64,000 nucleotides of DNA, taken from positions 62,001 through 126,000 of the forward strand of contig JANXUC010000002.1 in assembly GCA_025352065.1 (NCBI GenBank). Reading direction: 5' to 3'. The notes below the pieces were generated by a model. That model searched no databases and was not told where the DNA came from. It saw nothing but the letters and a program-made list of their open reading frames with translations. The position numbers were made by a program, and so were the translations under genes. Positions 55,439 to 64,000 of the stretch are shown piece by piece. Each line of letters opens with the position of its first letter. Positions within the stretch are counted from its first letter, which is position 1. Origin of the DNA: Acidobacteriaceae bacterium (GTDB lineage Bacteria; Acidobacteriota; Terriglobia; Terriglobales; Acidobacteriaceae).

Positions 55439-56968
55439 ATGAATTTCCAGGACCTACTTGACGGAGCTGAAATCCTTGCCCAGAGCGGGGATGCGTCCGT
55501 TACGGAAGTGGAATACGATTCGCGTAAAGCGAAGCCGGGCACACTTTTTGTCGCCATGCGGGGAGAGACTTCCGATGGCAATCGCTACATTGATCAGGCC
55601 GTCGAAAAAGGCGCCGTTGCGGTTGTCACTGATTCTGTAAGTGAAACGCAGCGGTCGGGCGTTGCTTGGGCGCAAGTGCCGCACGGCCGCCGTGCGCTTG
55701 CCCGCATCAGCGCAAATTTCTACATGCAGCCTGCGAACCGAATTAGTACGACTGGAATTACTGGAACTAACGGCAAGAGCACCACGGCTTTCCTGCTCGA
55801 ATCTATTCTGAGCGCGTCGGGCCGGAAGAGCCTGCTCGTCGGCACGATCGAATATCATGTGGCGGGCCAGATTCTTCCCGCGCCGCATACGACTCCGGAA
55901 GCGTTGGAGTTGAATCAGCTCTTAGCGCAAGCCTTGGAAGCGGGCGCAACGGAAGCGGTGATGGAAGTCTCGTCGCACGCGTTGGATCAGCAGCGTGTTT
56001 TCGGAATTCCTTTCGATGTTGCAGTTTTCACGAACTTAACGCGCGATCATCTTGATTACCACAAAGACATGGACCAGTACTTTGCGGCCAAGCGAGTGCT
56101 GTTTGAGGGTTGTGGCACGGAGGCTCCTCGCGTAGCTGTGCTCAACGCCGATGACCCGTACGGCGTGCAGTTGGCGGAGTTCAGCAAGTCTGCTGGATCG
56201 CAAGTTGTCACCTATGGCTTAGGTCGCGGTGATTTCCATGCTGAGAACGTTGACATTACTTTGCGTGGTACGCGATTCGACATCGCCAGTCCGGAGGGCA
56301 AGATTCCCATTTGGTCGCCGCTGATCGGCAAAGTGAATGTGTACAACATTCTGGCGGCTGCGGCTGCCGCATCGGAACGCGGGTGCTCGACAAACCACAT
56401 CGCAGAGGGGATTGCCGCGCTGGCATTCGTCCCCGGCCGTTTTCAGCGGGTCGATTGCGGGCAGCCGTTCACTGTAGTCGTGGATTATGCGCACACCGAT
56501 GATGCTTTGCGGAATTTGACGGCGCTCTCGCGGGAGTTTATGACGCAGGCTGGCGGGCGTGGCAAGGTCATCACGGTTTTCGGTTGTGGCGGAGATCGCG
56601 ACCGCGCCAAACGTCCGCTGATGGGTGAGGCGGCGGGACGAGGCAGTGACCTCGTCGTGCTGACGTCGGACAATCCACGCAGCGAGGATCCCGTCACCAT
56701 CATTAATGATGCGCTGGTTGGCGTGCAACGTTCGAACACAAAATACAAGATTGAGCCCGACCGCCAAGCTGCGATTGCGCTTGCGCTGAGCACGGCAATG
56801 GCGGGCGATATCGTGCTGCTGGCTGGTAAAGGGCACGAGAAGACGCAAGTTTCGCGGGCTGGTGTGCGCCCTTTCGATGATGTGGAAGCAGCGCGAAATC
56901 TTCTACGCGCTTCGGGATACGATTGCGATCCTGAAAAAACAAAGACGCTGGCGGAGAGAACTGCATGA
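55439..56968 (+). CDS. murE: UDP-MurNAc-tripeptide synthetase, meso-DAP type
   Basis: The 509-aa Mur ligase adds the third residue of the stem peptide. The ATP loop is ITGTNGKSTTAFLLE; TNLTRDHLDYHKDMDQYFAAK is the central domain signature. The specificity motif DNPR is in LTSDNPRSEDP, which is the meso-diaminopimelate signature (Lys enzymes have DNPA or similar), so the cell wall should be DAP-type. It overlaps murF by 4 bp. ATG 55439. Confidence 0.96.
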   Translation: MNFQDLLDGAEILAQSGDASVTEVEYDSRKAKPGTLFVAMRGETSDGNRYIDQAVEKGAVAVVTDSVSETQRSGVAWAQVPHGRRALARISANFYMQPANRISTTGITGTNGKSTTAFLLESILSASGRKSLLVGTIEYHVAGQILPAPHTTPEALELNQLLAQALEAGATEAVMEVSSHALDQQRVFGIPFDVAVFTNLTRDHLDYHKDMDQYFAAKRVLFEGCGTEAPRVAVLNADDPYGVQLAEFSKSAGSQVVTYGLGRGDFHAENVDITLRGTRFDIASPEGKIPIWSPLIGKVNVYNILAAAAAASERGCSTNHIAEGIAALAFVPGRFQRVDCGQPFTVVVDYAHTDDALRNLTALSREFMTQAGGRGKVITVFGCGGDRDRAKRPLMGEAAGRGSDLVVLTSDNPRSEDPVTIINDALVGVQRSNTKYKIEPDRQAAIALALSTAMAGDIVLLAGKGHEKTQVSRAGVRPFDDVEAARNLLRASGYDCDPEKTKTLAERTA

Positions 56969-58335
56969 AGCTTCCGCTGTCTCGCGTCGCTGAATTTATT
57001 TCCGCCCACGGTGAATTTGACCGCAGTTCGGTGGCGCAGGGATACTCCATCGATTCGCGCACGCTGCTGCCGGGAGAACTATTTCTTGCGGTCCTCGGCG
57101 AACGCCTCGACGGGCATGACTATGTGAAGCAAGCGCTGGAAAAAGGCGCTGTTGCTGCCGTTATTCAAAAGGATTATCTGGATCGGTATCCTTCGAAAAC
57201 GGGTCTGATTGTTGTGGAAGATACGCTGGGAGCTTTGCAGAACTTAGCCGCGTGCGTTCGCCGCTACTGGGGAAAGACGGTGATTGGCGTCACCGGTTCA
57301 GCGGGCAAGACCACGACCAAGGAAGCGATTGCGCATCTGCTGAGTTCGCGCTCCCGCGTTCTGAAATCAGAAGGTAACTTTAACAATCATTTTGGCATGC
57401 CGTTGATGGTGCTCAAGCTTGAACCTGAGCATGAAATGGCGGTGATCGAAATGGGAATGTCGCACGCGGGGGAGATTGCGGCGCTGGCGAAGATTGCGCA
57501 GCCGAATACTGGCGTGGTCACCTGTGTTGCGCCGGTGCATCTGGAAAACTTTGGATCCATCGCAGGTATTGCACGTGCGAAGTATGAATTGATTGCATCT
57601 TTGAGTGCTACCGGGACTGCTGTGCTGAACGCCGACGACGAGTATGTTTCGCAATTTGGAAGGGACTTTCGCGGCCGGGTCCTCACGTTCGGGCTCAAAC
57701 CTACAGCAGATGTTTATGCGCAAAACATCCGGACTCTGGGAGCGAAAGGGTCGATGTTTGATCTGGTGGCAAGCGGTTGTACGCAGGAAGTAGAGCTGCC
57801 GTTAGTGGGCACGCACAATGTCTACAATGCTCTGGCGGCGGTGGCGGTCGCGCTCGAAAACGGATTGCCGCCGTCTGAGATCGCCGCAGCGTTGCCTTCC
57901 TTGCAGGCGGCGTCGAAGCGTGGACAGGTCCTTGATGTTCGCGGCGTGACCGTGCTCAACGACTGCTACAATTCGAATCCGAAGGCGTTGAAGTTTATGG
58001 TGGACGCGCTAGTAAGCATGCCGGCAACGCGCCGTATTGTTGTGGCCGGAGAAATGCTGGAGCTTGGTCCGAAAGCGGAACAAATGCATCGTGAATGCGG
58101 ACGGCATATGGCCGAGCGGCGTGTCGATCAATTGATTGGAGTGCGTGGGCTGGCCTCGGCGATGGTGGAAGAAGCGCGGAAGGCAGGAGTTTCTGCGGAG
58201 TTTGTCGCGACGCCAGAAGAGGCTGGAGCATGGCTGGCGCGGGAAGCGAAGCCGGGAGAGGCTGTTCTGCTCAAGGCTTCTCGCGGTGTGAAATTGGAAC
58301 GCGCGTTAGAAACATGGGAAGCTGCGAAATCCTAA
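56965..58335 (+). CDS. murF: UDP-MurNAc-tripeptide-D-Ala-D-Ala ligase
   Basis: The 456-aa ligase has an ATP loop GVTGSAGKTTTKEAIAHLL, central FNNHFGMPLMVLKLEPEHEMAVIEMGMSHAGEI (typical MurF NNxxGxPL) and DCYNSNPKALKFMVDAL. It adds D-Ala-D-Ala to complete the pentapeptide. The start overlaps murE (ATGA). About 50 bp separate it from mraY. Confidence 0.96.
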   Translation: MKLPLSRVAEFISAHGEFDRSSVAQGYSIDSRTLLPGELFLAVLGERLDGHDYVKQALEKGAVAAVIQKDYLDRYPSKTGLIVVEDTLGALQNLAACVRRYWGKTVIGVTGSAGKTTTKEAIAHLLSSRSRVLKSEGNFNNHFGMPLMVLKLEPEHEMAVIEMGMSHAGEIAALAKIAQPNTGVVTCVAPVHLENFGSIAGIARAKYELIASLSATGTAVLNADDEYVSQFGRDFRGRVLTFGLKPTADVYAQNIRTLGAKGSMFDLVASGCTQEVELPLVGTHNVYNALAAVAVALENGLPPSEIAAALPSLQAASKRGQVLDVRGVTVLNDCYNSNPKALKFMVDALVSMPATRRIVVAGEMLELGPKAEQMHRECGRHMAERRVDQLIGVRGLASAMVEEARKAGVSAEFVATPEEAGAWLAREAKPGEAVLLKASRGVKLERALETWEAAKS

Positions 58336-58398
58336 GTCCCGCTTCCGAGCTTTTGAACGACTGGCAACTGACTTCCGGCAAGTAATTTGGGAGGCGTA

Positions 58399-59541
58399 TT
58401 GCTCTACTGGCTGCTCTACCAGAAGCTTTACCACATGTATCCGGCGCTGTCGCTGTTCCGAATCTTCCGGTACCTCACGTTCCGGACAGCGTTCGCGAGC
58501 CTGACTGCGCTTTTCACAGGGCTGGTCATCGGGCCCGTCATAATCAATCGATTGCGGGAATTTCAGATCGGCCAGTACATTCGCGAAGAAGGGCCGAAGG
58601 GACACCGGAAGAAGGCCGGAACGCCGACTATGGGCGGACTGCTGATTGCGATCGCGACGATCGTTCCGACACTGCTGTGGGCTGACCTGAGTAATCGTTT
58701 TGTTTGGATCGTGCTGCTGTCAATGATCGCGTATTCGGCGATCGGCTTTCTGGACGACTATGAAAAAGTGATTCACAAACGGAATCTTGGCCTCACCGCA
58801 CGCGCCAAGCTCGGGCTGCAATTCCTGGTGGCGTTTCTCATTGCTGTCGCGCTGATTGCGATGCAAACCCGCGGACTTTACTCCACCAAGCTCATGGTTC
58901 CATTTGCAAAACATTTTCGCCCGGACATGGTGAATGAGTCGTTGCTGCATCACCCATATCTCTGGCCGCTGGCCTTCTTTTGGTTTGTGCTGTTTGTGTG
59001 CCTGGTTATCGTGGGCTCCAGTAATGCAGTGAATCTTACTGACGGCTTGGACGGCCTGGCCATTGGCTGTACCGTCATTTCAGCCGGAGCGCTGACGGTA
59101 CTTACTTACGTAGGCGGGCATGCGGTGTTTGCCGATTATCTTGAATTGGAACGCATGCCGCAAGTGGGAGAACTTACCGTATTCTGCGGCGCCATGGTGG
59201 GGTCAGCGATCGGATTTCTTTGGTACAACGCGCATCCCGCCGAAGTTTTTATGGGGGATGTGGGCTCGCTCGGACTGGGCGGCGCGATTGGAACTGTGGC
59301 TGTCGTCATCAAGCAAGAATTACTCCTGCCGTTTATCGGAGGTGTTTTTGTTATCGAAGCGTTGTCGGTCATCTTGCAGGTGGGCTCTTACAAGTTGCGG
59401 AAGAAACGCATTTTCAAAATGGCGCCGATTCATCATCACTTCGAACTCATGGGGTGGTCGGAATCGAAGGTGATTGTCCGGTTCTGGATCGCGTCGCTGG
59501 TCTTCGCCCTATTCGCTTTGACTACGTTGAAACTGAGATAA
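58399..59541 (+). CDS. mraY: Phospho-MurNAc-pentapeptide translocase
   Basis: A 380-aa enzyme with ten TM helices that makes lipid I from UDP-MurNAc-pentapeptide and undecaprenyl phosphate. Signature loops: GPKGHRKKAGTPTMGGLLI, NLTDGLDGLAIG, AEVFMGDVGSLGLGGAIG and MAPIHHHFEL. The start is taken as TTG 58399 (LYWLLYQKLYHMYP), with GGGAGG 4 nt upstream; the TTG at 58387 lies upstream of that site. Confidence 0.95.
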   Translation: MLYWLLYQKLYHMYPALSLFRIFRYLTFRTAFASLTALFTGLVIGPVIINRLREFQIGQYIREEGPKGHRKKAGTPTMGGLLIAIATIVPTLLWADLSNRFVWIVLLSMIAYSAIGFLDDYEKVIHKRNLGLTARAKLGLQFLVAFLIAVALIAMQTRGLYSTKLMVPFAKHFRPDMVNESLLHHPYLWPLAFFWFVLFVCLVIVGSSNAVNLTDGLDGLAIGCTVISAGALTVLTYVGGHAVFADYLELERMPQVGELTVFCGAMVGSAIGFLWYNAHPAEVFMGDVGSLGLGGAIGTVAVVIKQELLLPFIGGVFVIEALSVILQVGSYKLRKKRIFKMAPIHHHFELMGWSESKVIVRFWIASLVFALFALTTLKLR

Positions 59542-59619
59542 TTCGGTTGCCAGCTCTCGGCGATCAGTCAGAAGTTGTTTTGCCGAAAGCTGACAGCCGA
59601 AAGCCGATAGCCTCTCGCC

Positions 59620-60984
59620 ATGGACCTCCAAGACAAACGTATCCTTATAGTAGGGCTGGGAAAATCCGGGATTGCCTCGGCGCAATTCCTGCAGGCGCGG
59701 GGAGCCAAGGTCACAGTTTCGGATTCCAAGAGCCCGGACCAGTTGCGGGGCGAGATTCCTGCACTGCTGGATCGCGGTATTGCCGTTGAAACCGGCGGTC
59801 ACGGTGAGCGCACATTCCGTGGACAGGATTTAATTGTTGTCAGCCCCGGCGTTCCTGCCGACGTCCCGCAGCTTGTGCAGGCGCGAATTCATGGCGTGCC
59901 GATTATTGGTGAGATTGAGCTCGCGTCGCAGTTTCTGCAGGGGCGCATCGTGGCCATTACCGGCTCCAACGGAAAAACGACGACCACGACGCTGACCGGA
60001 GAAATTCTCGCCGCCTCCGGGTTCCCGGTTGTCGTGGGAGGCAATATTGGAACGCCCGCCATTTCTTTAGTTGAGAAGACTACCCCCTCAACTTTCGCAG
60101 TCCTCGAGATTTCAAGCTTCCAACTGGAGACCATTCAGACCTTTCGCCCGTTTATTTCCTGCATTCTGAACATAACGCCGGATCATCTCGACCGCCATCG
60201 CACTTTCGAGGCCTATGTCAAAGCCAAGGCTCGTATTTTCGAGAATCAGAACGAAACGGGCTACTGCATTTTGAACGCCGACGATCCTGCCGCGAACGCG
60301 CTGACCAGCCGCGCGCGCTGTCCGGTACTGCATTTCAGCCGCCGCAGCGAAGTCGCAGCCGGAGCCTTCGTTCGCGAAGGCAGGATCTTCTTTCGCGACG
60401 GGAAGGCTGGCGGCAAGGAGCAGGAAATTCTGCCCGTTGCCGAGATCCCTCTCAAGGGTGCGCACAACTTGGAAAATGTGCTGGCCGCAGTATGCCTGGC
60501 GAGCTTGGCAGGCTGCCCGGCAGAAACCATTCGGCAGGCCGTGCGAGCTTTCAAAGCCGTTGAACACCGTCTGGAGTTCGTGGCGGAGATCGCCGGTGTC
60601 AGCTACTACAACGACTCCAAAGCTACGAACGTGGATGCCACCATCAAAGCTCTGGAATCTTTCCCCGCCAACATTCACCTGATTCTGGGCGGCAAAGATA
60701 AAGGCAGCGACTATTCCGTGTTGAACGATTTGCTACGGCAGCGCGTGAAGCGCGTTTATACCATCGGAGCCGCTGCCGAGAAGATCGAGAGCCAAATTTT
60801 CGACGCGGTCGAAATTTTCCCCGCAGGAACCCTGGAGAATGCCGTCCGCCGCGCCGCCACCACTGCGGTTCGGGGTGACGTGATTCTTTTAGCCCCGGCC
60901 TGCGCCAGTTTCGACCAGTTTCAGAGCTACGAGCATCGTGGGCGGGTGTTTAAGGACGTGGTGAAGTCGCTGGCTGGGAAATAG
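59620..60984 (+). CDS. murD: UDP-MurNAc-L-alanine:D-glutamate ligase
   Basis: The 454-aa ligase adds D-Glu to UDP-MurNAc-L-Ala. N-terminal uridine-binding Rossmann domain ILIVGLGKSGIASAQFLQARGAKVTVSDSK, ATP loop ITGSNGKTTTTTLTGEIL, PDHLDRH, and the C-terminal YNDSKATNVDATIKAL...GGKDKGSDYSVL. ATG 59620. About 78 bp of repeat-like DNA separates it from mraY. The next expected dcw gene (ftsW) does not follow. Confidence 0.96.
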   Translation: MDLQDKRILIVGLGKSGIASAQFLQARGAKVTVSDSKSPDQLRGEIPALLDRGIAVETGGHGERTFRGQDLIVVSPGVPADVPQLVQARIHGVPIIGEIELASQFLQGRIVAITGSNGKTTTTTLTGEILAASGFPVVVGGNIGTPAISLVEKTTPSTFAVLEISSFQLETIQTFRPFISCILNITPDHLDRHRTFEAYVKAKARIFENQNETGYCILNADDPAANALTSRARCPVLHFSRRSEVAAGAFVREGRIFFRDGKAGGKEQEILPVAEIPLKGAHNLENVLAAVCLASLAGCPAETIRQAVRAFKAVEHRLEFVAEIAGVSYYNDSKATNVDATIKALESFPANIHLILGGKDKGSDYSVLNDLLRQRVKRVYTIGAAAEKIESQIFDAVEIFPAGTLENAVRRAATTAVRGDVILLAPACASFDQFQSYEHRGRVFKDVVKSLAGK

Positions 60985-61093: not shown

Positions 61094-61122
61094 TTGAAAA
61101 CTGGCGGCTGGTTGGGTATGAT
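61094..61122 (+). promoter_or_regulatory. Near-consensus sigma70 promoter of the peptide-modification cassette
   Basis: TTGAAA (61094-61099), a 17-bp spacer and TATGAT (61117-61122). Both hexamers match the consensus at 5 of 6 positions with ideal spacing. It implies that the cassette is transcribed independently of murD and puts transcription start near 61129. Confidence 0.7.
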
Positions 61123-61147
61123 TCGACCACGCCCTGTTCCCGCATTC

Positions 61148-61444
61148 ATGAACCCGCCTTCCGCCCAATACGTTCGCTCGGCTTCCGTTGTCTCCCGCGT
61201 CATTGCCGGGGAAACGCTGATCGTTCCTGTGCGGCGCGGCACCGCCGATCTGGCGTCCTTATATAGCTTTAACCCGGCTGGCAGCACGATTTGGCAAGCG
61301 CTGGATCAGCCTCGGACCGTAGAGGAACTCGCCAATTTGCTGACGGAAACCTTTGACGTTACCCCAGAAAAGGCCCGGCAAGATGTCGATACGTTTCTCA
61401 GCGAGGCCGGGGCCATGGGACTGGTGCACACAAAAGGGCATTAA
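61148..61444 (+). CDS. PqqD-family peptide-recognition protein
   Basis: The 98-aa protein has the PqqD/RRE pattern: IVPVRRGTADLASLYSFNPAGSTIWQALDQPRTVEELANLLTETF, followed by a helix (TPEKARQDVDTFLSEAGAMGLV). PqqD-like proteins bind leader peptides and present them to radical SAM enzymes. Start choice: in-frame ATG 61118 lies within the predicted -10 box and TTG 61094 in the -35, so ATG 61148 is the first usable start after the promoter. It has no obvious Shine-Dalgarno and could be near leaderless. It is 71 bp upstream of the radical SAM gene. Confidence 0.82.
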   Translation: MNPPSAQYVRSASVVSRVIAGETLIVPVRRGTADLASLYSFNPAGSTIWQALDQPRTVEELANLLTETFDVTPEKARQDVDTFLSEAGAMGLVHTKGH

Positions 61445-61515
61445 TATCTGGGACACCGGGGCGCGCTTCGGGTAAACTTACAGGGGCATTTTAAGCAACC
61501 TGCAAAGAGAGGCAC

Positions 61516-62784
61516 ATGGATCTAGCGACGTACGGCGACTTAAGCCTATCGATCCACTCGCACTATGCTGGGAAGCGCGCGCCTATGGAAGTGGCGATTG
61601 AAGTCACGCGCCGCTGTCCGCTGGAATGCCTCCATTGCTACAACAATTTGCCCATGGGCGACCTGCCTGCCCGCAATCGCGAACTGAGTAAGGAAGAGCA
61701 CTTTAAGATGCTGGACGAGCTCGCGGATCTCGGCACGTTCTGGCTTCTTTATAGTGGTGGCGAAATTTTCGCTCGCAAAGATTTTCTGGAAATCTATACT
61801 TACGCCAAGAAGAAGGGTTTCCTAATCACGCTGTTCACCAACGGAACTCTGATCAGCGAAAAGATCGCCGACTACCTGGTCGAATGGCCGCCATTTTCCA
61901 TTGAGATTACGCTTTACGGTCGGACGAAAGAAACCTACGAAGCGATGACTGAAATCCCCGGTTCCTACGAGCGTTGTTTGCGTGGGATCGAGAATCTGCG
62001 TCAACGCAACCTACCCCTGAAGCTGAAAACCGTGCCTACCACGATTAACAAGCACGAGGTTTTCGCCATGAAGCGCTTCGCAGAAGAAGACTTGGGACTG
62101 GAATTTAAGTTCGACGCGCTGATTAATCCGCGCTTGGATTGTTCGCAAAGCCCCCTTGGGGTGCGCCTCTCGCCGGAAGAAGTAGTTGCTATTGATATGC
62201 ATCCGGCGCGCAACCGAACCGAATATTCCCGTCTGGCGGAACTCGGTTTATCCTCGCCTCCGAGCTTGGGCGAAAGCGAAAGCCTCTATTTCTGCGGCGG
62301 GGGAATGAACTCCTTTGCGGTTAATCCTTATGGCGAGATGAGCATATGTGTCCTTTCTCAGAAGGAGACCTATAACATTCGCGAAGGTGGCGTGAAGCAC
62401 GGCTGGGAGAAGTTTCTTGGGCAGATTCGGCTAGAGAAAAAGCGGTTGCGCCCCACGAAGTGTACGACTTGCAAGATTCAGGGCCTCTGCAGTATGTGCC
62501 CAGCCACAGCCGAACTTGAAAATGGGGATCCCGAATCGCCCGTCGAATTTCTGTGCGAAGTAGCTCACATCCGCGCCATGGCGCTCGGGTTTGAAGTGCC
62601 TCAGCACGGAGATTGCGATTGTTGTAACGGGAGCGAGCGGCACAAAGCATTGCAATCGTCTGCCGCGCGAATTTCGGCACAGGAGATTGATGTCGAAGCG
62701 TGGAAAGCTCCTACTGTGCTGTTGCCTGTTTTGAGTAACCCAAGCGCTGGTGGTGGGTGTGGGAGTTGCGGCAGTCACAGCTAG
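61516..62784 (+). CDS. Radical SAM/SPASM peptide-modifying enzyme
   Basis: The 422-aa enzyme has the radical SAM cluster motif CPLECLHC (Cys34, 38, 41) and LLYSGGEIFARKDFLEI as SAM-binding GGE. A TIM-barrel core follows. The C-terminal SPASM region has many Cys: YFCGGGMNSFAVNPYGEMSICVLS, then CTTCKIQGLCSMCPATAE and FLCEVAH, enough for one or two auxiliary [4Fe-4S] clusters. The tail ends GGGCGSCGSHS, an unusual Gly/Cys-rich extension. Together with a PqqD-like protein and a precursor gene it should modify the downstream peptide (thioether, C-C or epimerisation chemistry cannot be told). ATG 61516 with AGAGAGG 3 nt upstream. Confidence 0.9.
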   Translation: MDLATYGDLSLSIHSHYAGKRAPMEVAIEVTRRCPLECLHCYNNLPMGDLPARNRELSKEEHFKMLDELADLGTFWLLYSGGEIFARKDFLEIYTYAKKKGFLITLFTNGTLISEKIADYLVEWPPFSIEITLYGRTKETYEAMTEIPGSYERCLRGIENLRQRNLPLKLKTVPTTINKHEVFAMKRFAEEDLGLEFKFDALINPRLDCSQSPLGVRLSPEEVVAIDMHPARNRTEYSRLAELGLSSPPSLGESESLYFCGGGMNSFAVNPYGEMSICVLSQKETYNIREGGVKHGWEKFLGQIRLEKKRLRPTKCTTCKIQGLCSMCPATAELENGDPESPVEFLCEVAHIRAMALGFEVPQHGDCDCCNGSERHKALQSSAARISAQEIDVEAWKAPTVLLPVLSNPSAGGGCGSCGSHS

Positions 62785-62829
62785 GTTCACAAGGTATTGC
62801 CAGTTTCGTTTCAGGAGAGAGAGAAAAGA

Positions 62830-63006
62830 ATGAAGCAATTAGGAAACGATCCAGTTGAGAAGAGGCTCTACGAGCCGCCTAAAATCTGTACCATTAGCTT
62901 ACGTCCAGAAGAAGCCGTGTTGGGGAACTGCAAGATTTCCGGTTCGTCCGGCCCGGGAAATGCTGCTTGCAGCGTGCTGCCAAAATGCAGCAGCATTGGT
63001 TCGTAA
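62830..63006 (+). CDS. Putative RiPP precursor peptide (58 aa)
   Basis: A 58-aa peptide whose charged leader contains RLYEPPKI and ISLRPEEAVLGNCK, followed by a Ser/Gly/Cys-rich C-terminus (SGSSGPGNAACSVLPKCSS). Cys are at 20, 34, 47 and 53; Ser are clustered at 37, 39-40, 48, 54-55 and the last residue 58. It has the hallmarks of a modified-peptide precursor: small, leader plus low-complexity Cys/Ser core, placed directly after a radical SAM gene and before a kinase. AGGAG precedes ATG 62830 by about 12 nt. Mature boundaries are unknown; a cut near residue 35 is a guess. Confidence 0.78.
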   Translation: MKQLGNDPVEKRLYEPPKICTISLRPEEAVLGNCKISGSSGPGNAACSVLPKCSSIGS

Positions 63007-63037
63007 CGAGCCAACCGTGGTGCGAGAGGGAGCGCCG

Positions 63038-63985
63038 GTGGGCAACGAAACCATTGCGTGGAGCGCGTCGTGTGTAGCGGAGGAGCCATCTGCGGGACTG
63101 TGGCGCGCGAGCTTCAGCATTGGCGAAGTCACACTAGGACTTAGCGGAGATGCTACGCATACGCCGTTCTTCAGCCCTCAAATCGAGCCGTTTCGTTGTC
63201 CGCTGAGTGCCTGCGATATCGAGATCGCCTTCGAATGGGTTGAGCATATATCTTCGCCCTTGTCCCCTCTGGCATTCGATTCCGGATCGGTCTGGAAGCT
63301 CTACCAATCAGGCTCGGATTTCACGTTTGATTTTTCCTCTCCCGTCATCAGTTCCCAACCCTATAAGCGACTGCACGTCGATCGTGATTTCCGCAAAGCG
63401 CTGCTGTTTCTAAACCGCAGTTGTTTCCCGGAAGGCTCCTACTGCAATCCGCTGGAGTACCCGCTCGATGAACTGGTGGTCATGCACCGGCTTGGGCGCG
63501 AGCGTGGCGTCGAAGTTCACGCTGCTGGGCTTTACGATGCTGACTTGCGGGAGGCTGGTCGCGGAGGCTTTCTCTTTATAGGGCACTCAGGCGCGGGGAA
63601 AAGCACCACCTCACGGCTTTGGCGAGAACGCCGGAACGTTACCATCCTGAGCGATGATCGAATTATCTTGCGCAAACAAGACGGCCAGGTATGGATGCAC
63701 GGCACGCCCTGGCACGGCGAGGCGGCTTACGCTGCCGCGGAAAAGTCGAAGATCGACAAGCTTTTTATCCTGGAGCACGCTCCAGCCAACCGGATTACCC
63801 AGTTGCGCGGCAGCCAGGCCGTCGGCGAACTGATGGCGCGGAGTTTTCTGCCGTTTTACGACGGCCCCGCGCTGGAATCGACGATGGCGTTCCTCGAAGA
63901 GATTGTGGAGACGATTCCGTGCTATCGGCTGGAGTTTTTGCCCGATTCGAGCGCCGTGGAAACGGTCTTGAACTTCAGGCTGTAG
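63038..63985 (+). CDS. HPr-kinase-like P-loop protein of the RiPP cassette
   Basis: A 315-aa protein whose C-terminal half resembles the catalytic domain of HPr kinase/phosphorylase: P-loop GHSGAGKST (residues 182-190) and ILSDDRIIL as Walker-B-like Asp pair. HAAGL precedes the P-loop region. The N-terminal 150 residues are unlike HprK. Related HprK-like kinases occur in peptide clusters (for example in lasso-peptide clusters, where they phosphorylate the precursor Ser). The start is GTG 63038 with AGGGAG 5 nt upstream; other GTG/TTG starts upstream would overlap or abut the precursor. The stop is at 63983-63985; what follows is unseen. Confidence 0.78.
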   Translation: MGNETIAWSASCVAEEPSAGLWRASFSIGEVTLGLSGDATHTPFFSPQIEPFRCPLSACDIEIAFEWVEHISSPLSPLAFDSGSVWKLYQSGSDFTFDFSSPVISSQPYKRLHVDRDFRKALLFLNRSCFPEGSYCNPLEYPLDELVVMHRLGRERGVEVHAAGLYDADLREAGRGGFLFIGHSGAGKSTTSRLWRERRNVTILSDDRIILRKQDGQVWMHGTPWHGEAAYAAAEKSKIDKLFILEHAPANRITQLRGSQAVGELMARSFLPFYDGPALESTMAFLEEIVETIPCYRLEFLPDSSAVETVLNFRL

Positions 63986-64000
63986 CGCCGTTCGGCTGGA

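Follow-up and report, generated by a model that had tools for sequence, protein, structure and literature searches.

A conserved cassette joining a radical SAM/SPASM enzyme and an HprK-like kinase to a 58-residue precursor in an Acidobacteriaceae bacterium

Among ribosomally synthesized and post-translationally modified peptides (RiPPs), the linear polyphosphorylated peptides (LPP) reported in 2026 from Bacillota have a core gene set of a RiPP recognition element (RRE), an HprK-like kinase and a SipW-like leader peptidase (PMC13381572). Discrete RREs recognise the motif [Y/W]xxPx[hydrophobic], which takes the form YxxPx[LIV] in LPP and lasso precursors; the SipW-like peptidase LppS depends on the RRE and cuts the RRE-bound precursor 12 residues past the Pro, after F-E-T; and the kinase LppK phosphorylates Ser3 of the core, not the C-terminus (PMC13381572). 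The paeninodin kinases phosphorylate a C-terminal Ser, being largely indifferent to the remaining sequence (PMC8498205), and have in common an essential His-Lys-Asp-Asp set (PMC9266682). Here we describe a cassette at the end of a 64,000-nucleotide stretch of DNA from an Acidobacteriaceae bacterium (contig JANXUC010000002.1, positions 62,001 to 126,000; hereafter the window), in which consecutive plus-strand genes between 61094 and 63985 encode a PqqD-type RRE, a radical S-adenosylmethionine (SAM)/SPASM enzyme, a 58-residue precursor and an HprK-like kinase. Judged from its sequence, the cassette quite probably makes a small peptide that is radical-modified, phosphorylated on its last residue and cut from its leader. 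We regard it as representing a real and apparently undescribed RiPP family, a new combination of known enzyme types.

The resemblance to LPP is considerable, i.e., the LPP core set of discrete RRE, HprK-like kinase and SipW-like peptidase is present, with an NTP transferase in some lineages, and the leaders carry YxxPx[LVI] followed, at an equal distance from the Pro, by Ala or Thr at position −1 and an acidic residue at −2. Unlike LPP, which have been described mainly from Bacillota, the cassette comes from other phyla and adds a radical SAM enzyme, three conserved Cys residues and a C-terminal Ser; radical SAM does not appear in the text of the LPP paper (PMC13381572). The longer LPP motif YxxPxVLxHQxIxFETxxS is absent from the cassette precursors, where only YxxPx[LIV] and the −1/−2 residues fit, and predicted core position 3 is Gly32 in the window's precursor, with no Ser at this place in the alignment. 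Paeninodin-type lasso peptides (PadeK/ThcoK; pseudomycoidin, PsmK/PsmN) share with the cassette the HprK-like kinase with its His-Lys-Asp-Asp set, the C-terminal Ser, the PqqD-type RRE and, in some lineages, a nucleotidyltransferase, but the cassette differs from them in having a radical SAM enzyme and conserved Cys residues. No lasso cyclase or B2 transglutaminase-type peptidase was recognised by eye among downstream open reading frames (ORFs) and recurrent neighbours, no dedicated profile search being made, and the neighbouring genes give no sign of a lasso peptide system.

A radical SAM/SPASM maturase adjoining a small precursor is familiar from sactipeptides and ranthipeptides (PapB, SkfB) and from other radical SAM RiPPs (SuiB), and a Cys-containing precursor is shared with the thioether classes. 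The cassette departs from these in its separate kinase, its SipW-like peptidase and a core nearly free of Asp and Glu. SynChlorMet cassettes (NCBIfam TIGR04248-04251) likewise bring PqqD-like, HprK-like and radical SAM proteins together; here, however, the precursor has no family model, and membership was rejected on the scores (ScmD 31.8 vs 100, ScmE 84 vs 400, ScmF 47 vs 400, ScmC 31.4 vs 125). The cassette is thus not a member of LPP, by its leader motif and predicted phosphosite, or of SynChlorMet, by the cut-offs; by analogy, it would work like LPP supplemented with paeninodin-type phosphorylation and radical SAM chemistry. A literature search, to which subscription papers did not belong, returned no paper uniting radical SAM, PqqD and HPr kinase, or describing a radical SAM and SipW RiPP.

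The precursor family and its distribution

The precursor ORF is preceded by GGAGAG, and in the alignment residues Y14, P17, L24, V30, L31, C34, K35, C47, C53, G57 and S58 are invariant, with a hydrophobic residue at +2 of the leader Pro in nearly all sequences. Each of the 57 distinct precursors in the close set has the same construction: YxxP is separated by exactly 11 residues from [A/V]VL and this by two from CK, after which come a variable core and a terminal Gly-Ser (57/57); 52 of them have three core Cys residues and 48 a core free of Asp and Glu. Core sequences differ strongly among genomes. The ratio of nonsynonymous to synonymous polymorphism (pN/pS) is 0.27 across the leader block. 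Taken together, the exact leader spacing, the Gly-Ser ends and this ratio place the arrangement, at the level of sequence, beyond chance.

When precursors of further phyla are included and one false pattern match in L021 is left out, the distinct precursors number 162, of which 157 end in Ser, four in Thr and one in Gly; the background for terminal Ser is 6% among long ORFs in the same loci and 18% among all short ATG frames, whether they are coding or noncoding. This preference, which agrees with the C-terminal Ser specificity of paeninodin-type kinases, is the strongest of the new evidence. Four of the five precursors not ending in Ser (L126, L136, L146 and L149) lie in stretches with no detected HprK-like gene. 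No NCBIfam or Pfam family scored above its cut-off with the precursors, which recur with the radical SAM loci, and this supports the proposal of the initial annotation that the precursor class is new.

A search of GTDB contigs with the radical SAM protein gave 36 loci (taxonomic labels are those of the record titles, and E-values from small sets are rough throughout). Identities are 60-72% within Acidobacteriota/Terriglobia, 52% in Myxococcales, 46-48% in Nitrospinae, Desulfobacterales, Aminicenantes, Nitrospirota and an undivided Deltaproteobacteria bin, 42% in Omnitrophota and 32% in Gygaella. The same gene order recurs in at least six other groups, i.e., Myxococcota, Nitrospinae, Nitrospirota, Desulfobacterales, Aminicenantes and Omnitrophota. 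Precursor and kinase lie 3′ of the radical SAM gene in complete loci, and every radical SAM locus has a precursor apart from the truncated L047; in L056 the kinase and a divergent precursor are found upstream of the radical SAM gene. When a profile of the precursor alone was run against 399 genomes of the class, it gave 25 strong matches in 25 genomes, all of which adjoin this radical SAM gene (25/25); the kinase lies on the other side of the precursor in every case where the contig extends that far. The initial annotation, which had the order and strand of the four genes right, also took them for one pathway and proposed comparing gene order and small ORFs in related genomes; the recurrent order, the precursors at the radical SAM loci and the 25 strong matches of the precursor profile bear this out. 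Three weak matches of the same search (L082-L084) were rejected as members, neither radical SAM gene nor kinase standing beside them. At L029:7286-9289, two extra genes, one of which matches Vgb_lyase/NHL repeats, separate the radical SAM gene from the precursor, and the precursor and kinase follow intact.

The precursor family is expanded in Omnitrophota. Profile matches at E ≤ 0.05 number 92 in G1364 (1.8 Mb) and 56 in G1318 (1.4 Mb), counts that refer to matches in draft genomes read in part and confirmed as genes only for some, and each of the two genomes has two to three radical SAM genes and one HprK-like kinase. In the stretches read, 59 recognisable precursors of the family all end in Ser, mostly as Pro-Ser. 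The maturation locus of G1318 contains HprK, RRE and three radical SAM genes in a row; most Omnitrophota precursors lie outside the maturation locus (e.g., L203-L222) and are diverse, with one set of maturation enzymes. Prochlorosins provide a precedent, in which a single LanM lanthionine synthetase matures many precursors. The Omnitrophota appear to share one enzyme set in the same manner among dozens of mostly off-locus precursors, but use radical SAM enzymes and a kinase where prochlorosins use LanM.

The predicted maturation enzymes

The PqqD-family protein reaches 58.3 bits against the PF05402 cut-off of 23.4 and stands beside a small precursor with a [Y/W]xxPx[hydrophobic] leader, as in RiPP systems with a discrete RRE; all NCBIfam PqqD equivalogs tested stay below cut-off. 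A TTG at 61094 is part of the −35 hexamer of a promoter-like site, so that the start is more likely ATG 61118 or 61148. The strong promoter previously predicted ahead of the cassette was rejected, because the site is at chance level (1 found, 1.7 expected).

In the radical SAM enzyme, the CxxxCxxC motif (C34, C38 and C41) and the seven SPASM cysteines (C260, C278, C316, C319, C325, C328 and C347) are invariant in 39 of 39 homologues, as befits a peptide maturase. The SPASM family PF13186 itself gives only E 0.016, below cut-off, and no NCBIfam maturase model reached its cut-off. Foldseek neighbours of the AlphaFold2 model (predicted local distance difference test, pLDDT, 81.7) are MoaA, PqqE, SkfB, SuiB and anSME. 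A C-terminal extension with two CxxC pairs is kept in the Acidobacteriota and Myxococcales enzymes, with C370, C415 and C418 in 31/31 aligned tails and C367 in 31/32, and is absent from the aligned Nitrospinae, Nitrospirota, Desulfobacterales, Aminicenantes and Omnitrophota homologues; it could hold another metal site.

With a start at 62855 the kinase ORF would run over the precursor, and GTG 63020, 13 bp past the precursor stop codon, is the likelier start. Residues H167, K194 and D212 are invariant among homologues and D213 nearly so. A single-sequence search against solved structures gave no match, and a profile search matched HprK (1jb1, E 6.8e-4) and phosphoenolpyruvate carboxykinase (PEPCK) together with many ABC proteins sharing only the P-loop, for which reason the fold was examined with AlphaFold and Foldseek. 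The model (pLDDT 90.9) has PEPCK (E 3.8e-6) and HprK (E 2.6e-4) as best matches, i.e., the HPr kinase/PEPCK fold with a P-loop.

The cassette comprises not four but five genes. The equally conserved fifth starts 140 bp 3′ of the kinase, past the window, and was read in a 19-kb stretch reaching 13 kb beyond the window end; the claim that the four genes contain everything for the pathway is corrected in this respect, since the likely leader peptidase is gene 5. Domain-wise searches, by which the gene 5, NTP_transf_5 and GNAT parts were told apart, identify an archaeal-type signal peptidase I (S26B), a domain that takes up about the first 150 residues of gene 5. Its Ser (SMxP), His (HR[LIV]) and Asp (GD) are conserved across aligned loci and intact in gene 5 of this cassette, which scores 31.8 bits with TIGR02228, below the cut-off of 51.85, and whose L048 homologue scores 65.3, above it. 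The domain is homologous to LppS, and, apart from the distant L056, the GTDB loci whose sequence reaches far enough have it 3′ of the kinase. When the LPP cut register is applied to the 57 close-set precursors, it falls at E-E-A|V, with Ala at −1 in 56 and Glu or Asp at −2 in all 57.

Most acidobacterial loci examined have the peptidase fused to a secreted DUF11/C25 (PorU-like) protein. Of 13 acidobacterial stretches of sufficient length (L086-L098), 12 contain the C25 domain, the exception being L088, which has the peptidase without C25, and in Myxococcales L046 it forms a separate gene adjoining the cassette. The C25 part of gene 5 matches the type IX secretion system sortase PorU (E 4.3e-65, below cut-off), and the motif residues (GHG and the Cys in TDCLNG) are present in gene 5 and in L046. 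A signal-peptide-like segment lies between parts of gene 5. A C25 match near a related radical SAM gene and RRE was also seen outside Acidobacteriota and Myxococcota, at L129 in the Desulfobacterota draft G1050. The loci of Nitrospinae, Desulfobacterales and Aminicenantes encode the peptidase separately, in some cases fused to a GNAT domain, with an NTP_transf_5 gene after it (E 5.1e-46 with PF14907 for L048), and in Omnitrophota L054 peptidase and NTP_transf_5 form one ORF.

Table 1 Features of the cassette (window coordinates; aa, amino acids)
Feature	Coordinates	Strand	Basis or remark
Promoter-like site TTGAAA-17-TATGAT	61094..61122	+	10/12 positions; weak
PqqD-family RRE, leader-binding protein	61148..61444	+	PF05402 E 9.7e-16
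Radical SAM/SPASM peptide maturase, 422 aa	61516..62784	+	PF04055 E 1.6e-18
C-terminal extension of the maturase, CxxC pairs C367/C370 and C415/C418	62614..62769	+	alignment of homologues
Precursor, 58 aa; leader 1-29 with Y14xxP17, predicted core 30-58 VLGNCKISGSSGPGNAACSVLPKCSSIGS	62830..63006	+	conserved family, 57 relatives
HprK-like kinase, GTG start; P-loop GHSGAGKS; H167, K194, D212, D213	63020..63985	+	motifs, fold match
Window end inside the operon	63986..64000	+	gene 5 starts beyond the window
Gene 5, S26B signal peptidase + DUF11 + Peptidase_C25, 2118 aa	about 64126-70482 (L004 6127-12483)	+	domain searches

Proposed pathway and alternatives

In the pathway that we propose, the PqqD-type RRE would bind the leader through Y14xxP17x[LIV], as suggested by the motif that the precursors share with the ligands of discrete RREs. 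The radical SAM/SPASM enzyme would then modify the core, most likely at C34, C47 and C53, and the conservation of these three residues makes Cys thioethers to neighbouring residues the likeliest product. Phosphorylation, perhaps polyphosphorylation, of the C-terminal Ser58 is assigned to the HprK-like kinase, and removal of the leader, probably after E27-E28-A29, to the signal peptidase of gene 5, which would free the 29-residue core VLGNCKISGSSGPGNAACSVLPKCSSIGS. The calculated [M+H]+ of this core is 2693.31 when unmodified and 2691.29, 2689.27 or 2687.26 with one, two or three crosslinks. In Acidobacteriota the fused DUF11/C25 protein may release or handle the product at the cell envelope, and the NTP_transf_5 protein found in its place in several other phyla may add a sugar to the phosphate, as happens in pseudomycoidin. 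The initial annotation had suggested a peptide both radically modified and phosphorylated, and the conserved Cys residues and near-invariant terminal Ser strengthen this suggestion; both steps, like the thioether chemistry, the cut site, the envelope role and the function, we infer.

Several observations weigh against such a pathway. The operon has no exporter gene, and no HPr-kinase or HprK-related NCBIfam model scores above cut-off with the HprK-like protein. Since LppK targets Ser3, a setting of SipW, RRE and HprK does not by itself fix the phosphosite, and several Ser-ending precursors of Desulfobacterota and Omnitrophota also occur in stretches with no HprK match, for which the kinase may be encoded elsewhere in the genome. 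Instead of thioethers, the precursor cysteines could make disulfides or a metal site, and C-C bonds or epimerised residues are conceivable products of the radical SAM enzyme.

The cassette might alternatively encode a true ranthipeptide or sactipeptide pathway with three Cys thioethers, in which the HprK-like protein is a regulatory or accessory P-loop protein and no peptide kinase. The three conserved cysteines would suit it, as would a PapB-family NCBIfam model that aligns over residues 27-342 of the radical SAM enzyme (56.2, cut-off 340), and the kinase is assigned by fold and motif only; we consider this unlikely, because a terminal Ser in 157 of 162 precursors together with a retained His-Lys-Asp-Asp set is hard to explain without a C-terminal kinase. 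An unsecreted cofactor, metallopeptide or redox peptide, whose three cysteines bind metal and on which the radical SAM enzyme makes a PQQ- or mycofactocin-like change, would agree with the small conserved Cys pattern and with the resemblance of the N-terminal half of the enzyme to the PqqE and mycofactocin radical SAM cores. It is quite improbable given that, unlike in a cofactor, the cores vary strongly between genomes and occur by the dozen in single Omnitrophota genomes, and that gene 5 is of the signal-peptidase type, in Acidobacteriota mostly joined to a secreted partner domain.

The recurrent association with C25, the intact C25 motif residues and the PorU match could also mean that the fused protease has the peptide as its substrate, activator or inhibitor, e.g., as a tag that a sortase-like reaction attaches to surface proteins. 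This is rather unlikely, as the precursor family is found in other phyla with no C25 match at the loci examined, and L088 pairs the cassette with a peptidase lacking C25 within Acidobacteriota itself. The composition of the cassette and the weak matches to ScmC, ScmD, ScmE and ScmF might, finally, point to an ordinary SynChlorMet-type cassette with the small ORF as a chance reading frame; all of these matches are far below the curated cut-offs, and conservation of the small ORF in six or more groups, with its constrained leader, refutes this. Radical modification of the core, phosphorylation of the C-terminal Ser and removal of the leader by gene 5 is the reading we prefer.

Genomic neighbourhood and implications

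Directly 5′ of the cassette are murF, mraY and murD of a cell-wall gene cluster (window 56965-60984), murD being the upstream neighbour. Neither ftsW nor murG was seen in the downstream stretch read, and the usual cell-wall cluster therefore seems to be interrupted at the cassette. An ABC exporter gene is encoded on the minus strand 4.4 kb beyond gene 5 (L004:16859-18619), outside the operon and not counted as part of it; related ABC proteins are found near five other loci (six in total), none within the operon. A second HprK-PqqD-radical SAM cassette in the same genome (G000:C74:12631-13907 and flank; L003, L018) has the order kinase, RRE, radical SAM and no recognisable precursor of the 58-residue family, and cassettes resembling it occur in several relatives (L010-L020).

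The union of radical SAM chemistry with phosphorylation of a C-terminal Ser was found in no described pathway, and the recently reported SipW-type leader peptidases are now extended to several further phyla. Genomes can easily be mined for the family, given its short C-terminal motif and uncomplicated leader signature. Somewhat speculatively, we suggest that the window's precursor may belong to a large superfamily, not yet described, of radical SAM-modified peptides with a phosphorylated C-terminal Ser, in which one set of enzymes (two to three radical SAM enzymes, one RRE and one kinase) would serve more than 50 precursors per Omnitrophota genome of 1.4-1.8 Mb, and the acidobacterial fusion of peptidase and C25/PorU-like protein would place the peptide on the cell surface. 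If all Omnitrophota precursors are processed, one enzyme set tolerates dozens of cores, which would be useful for making constrained phosphopeptides and also poses a biological question for these uncultured bacteria.

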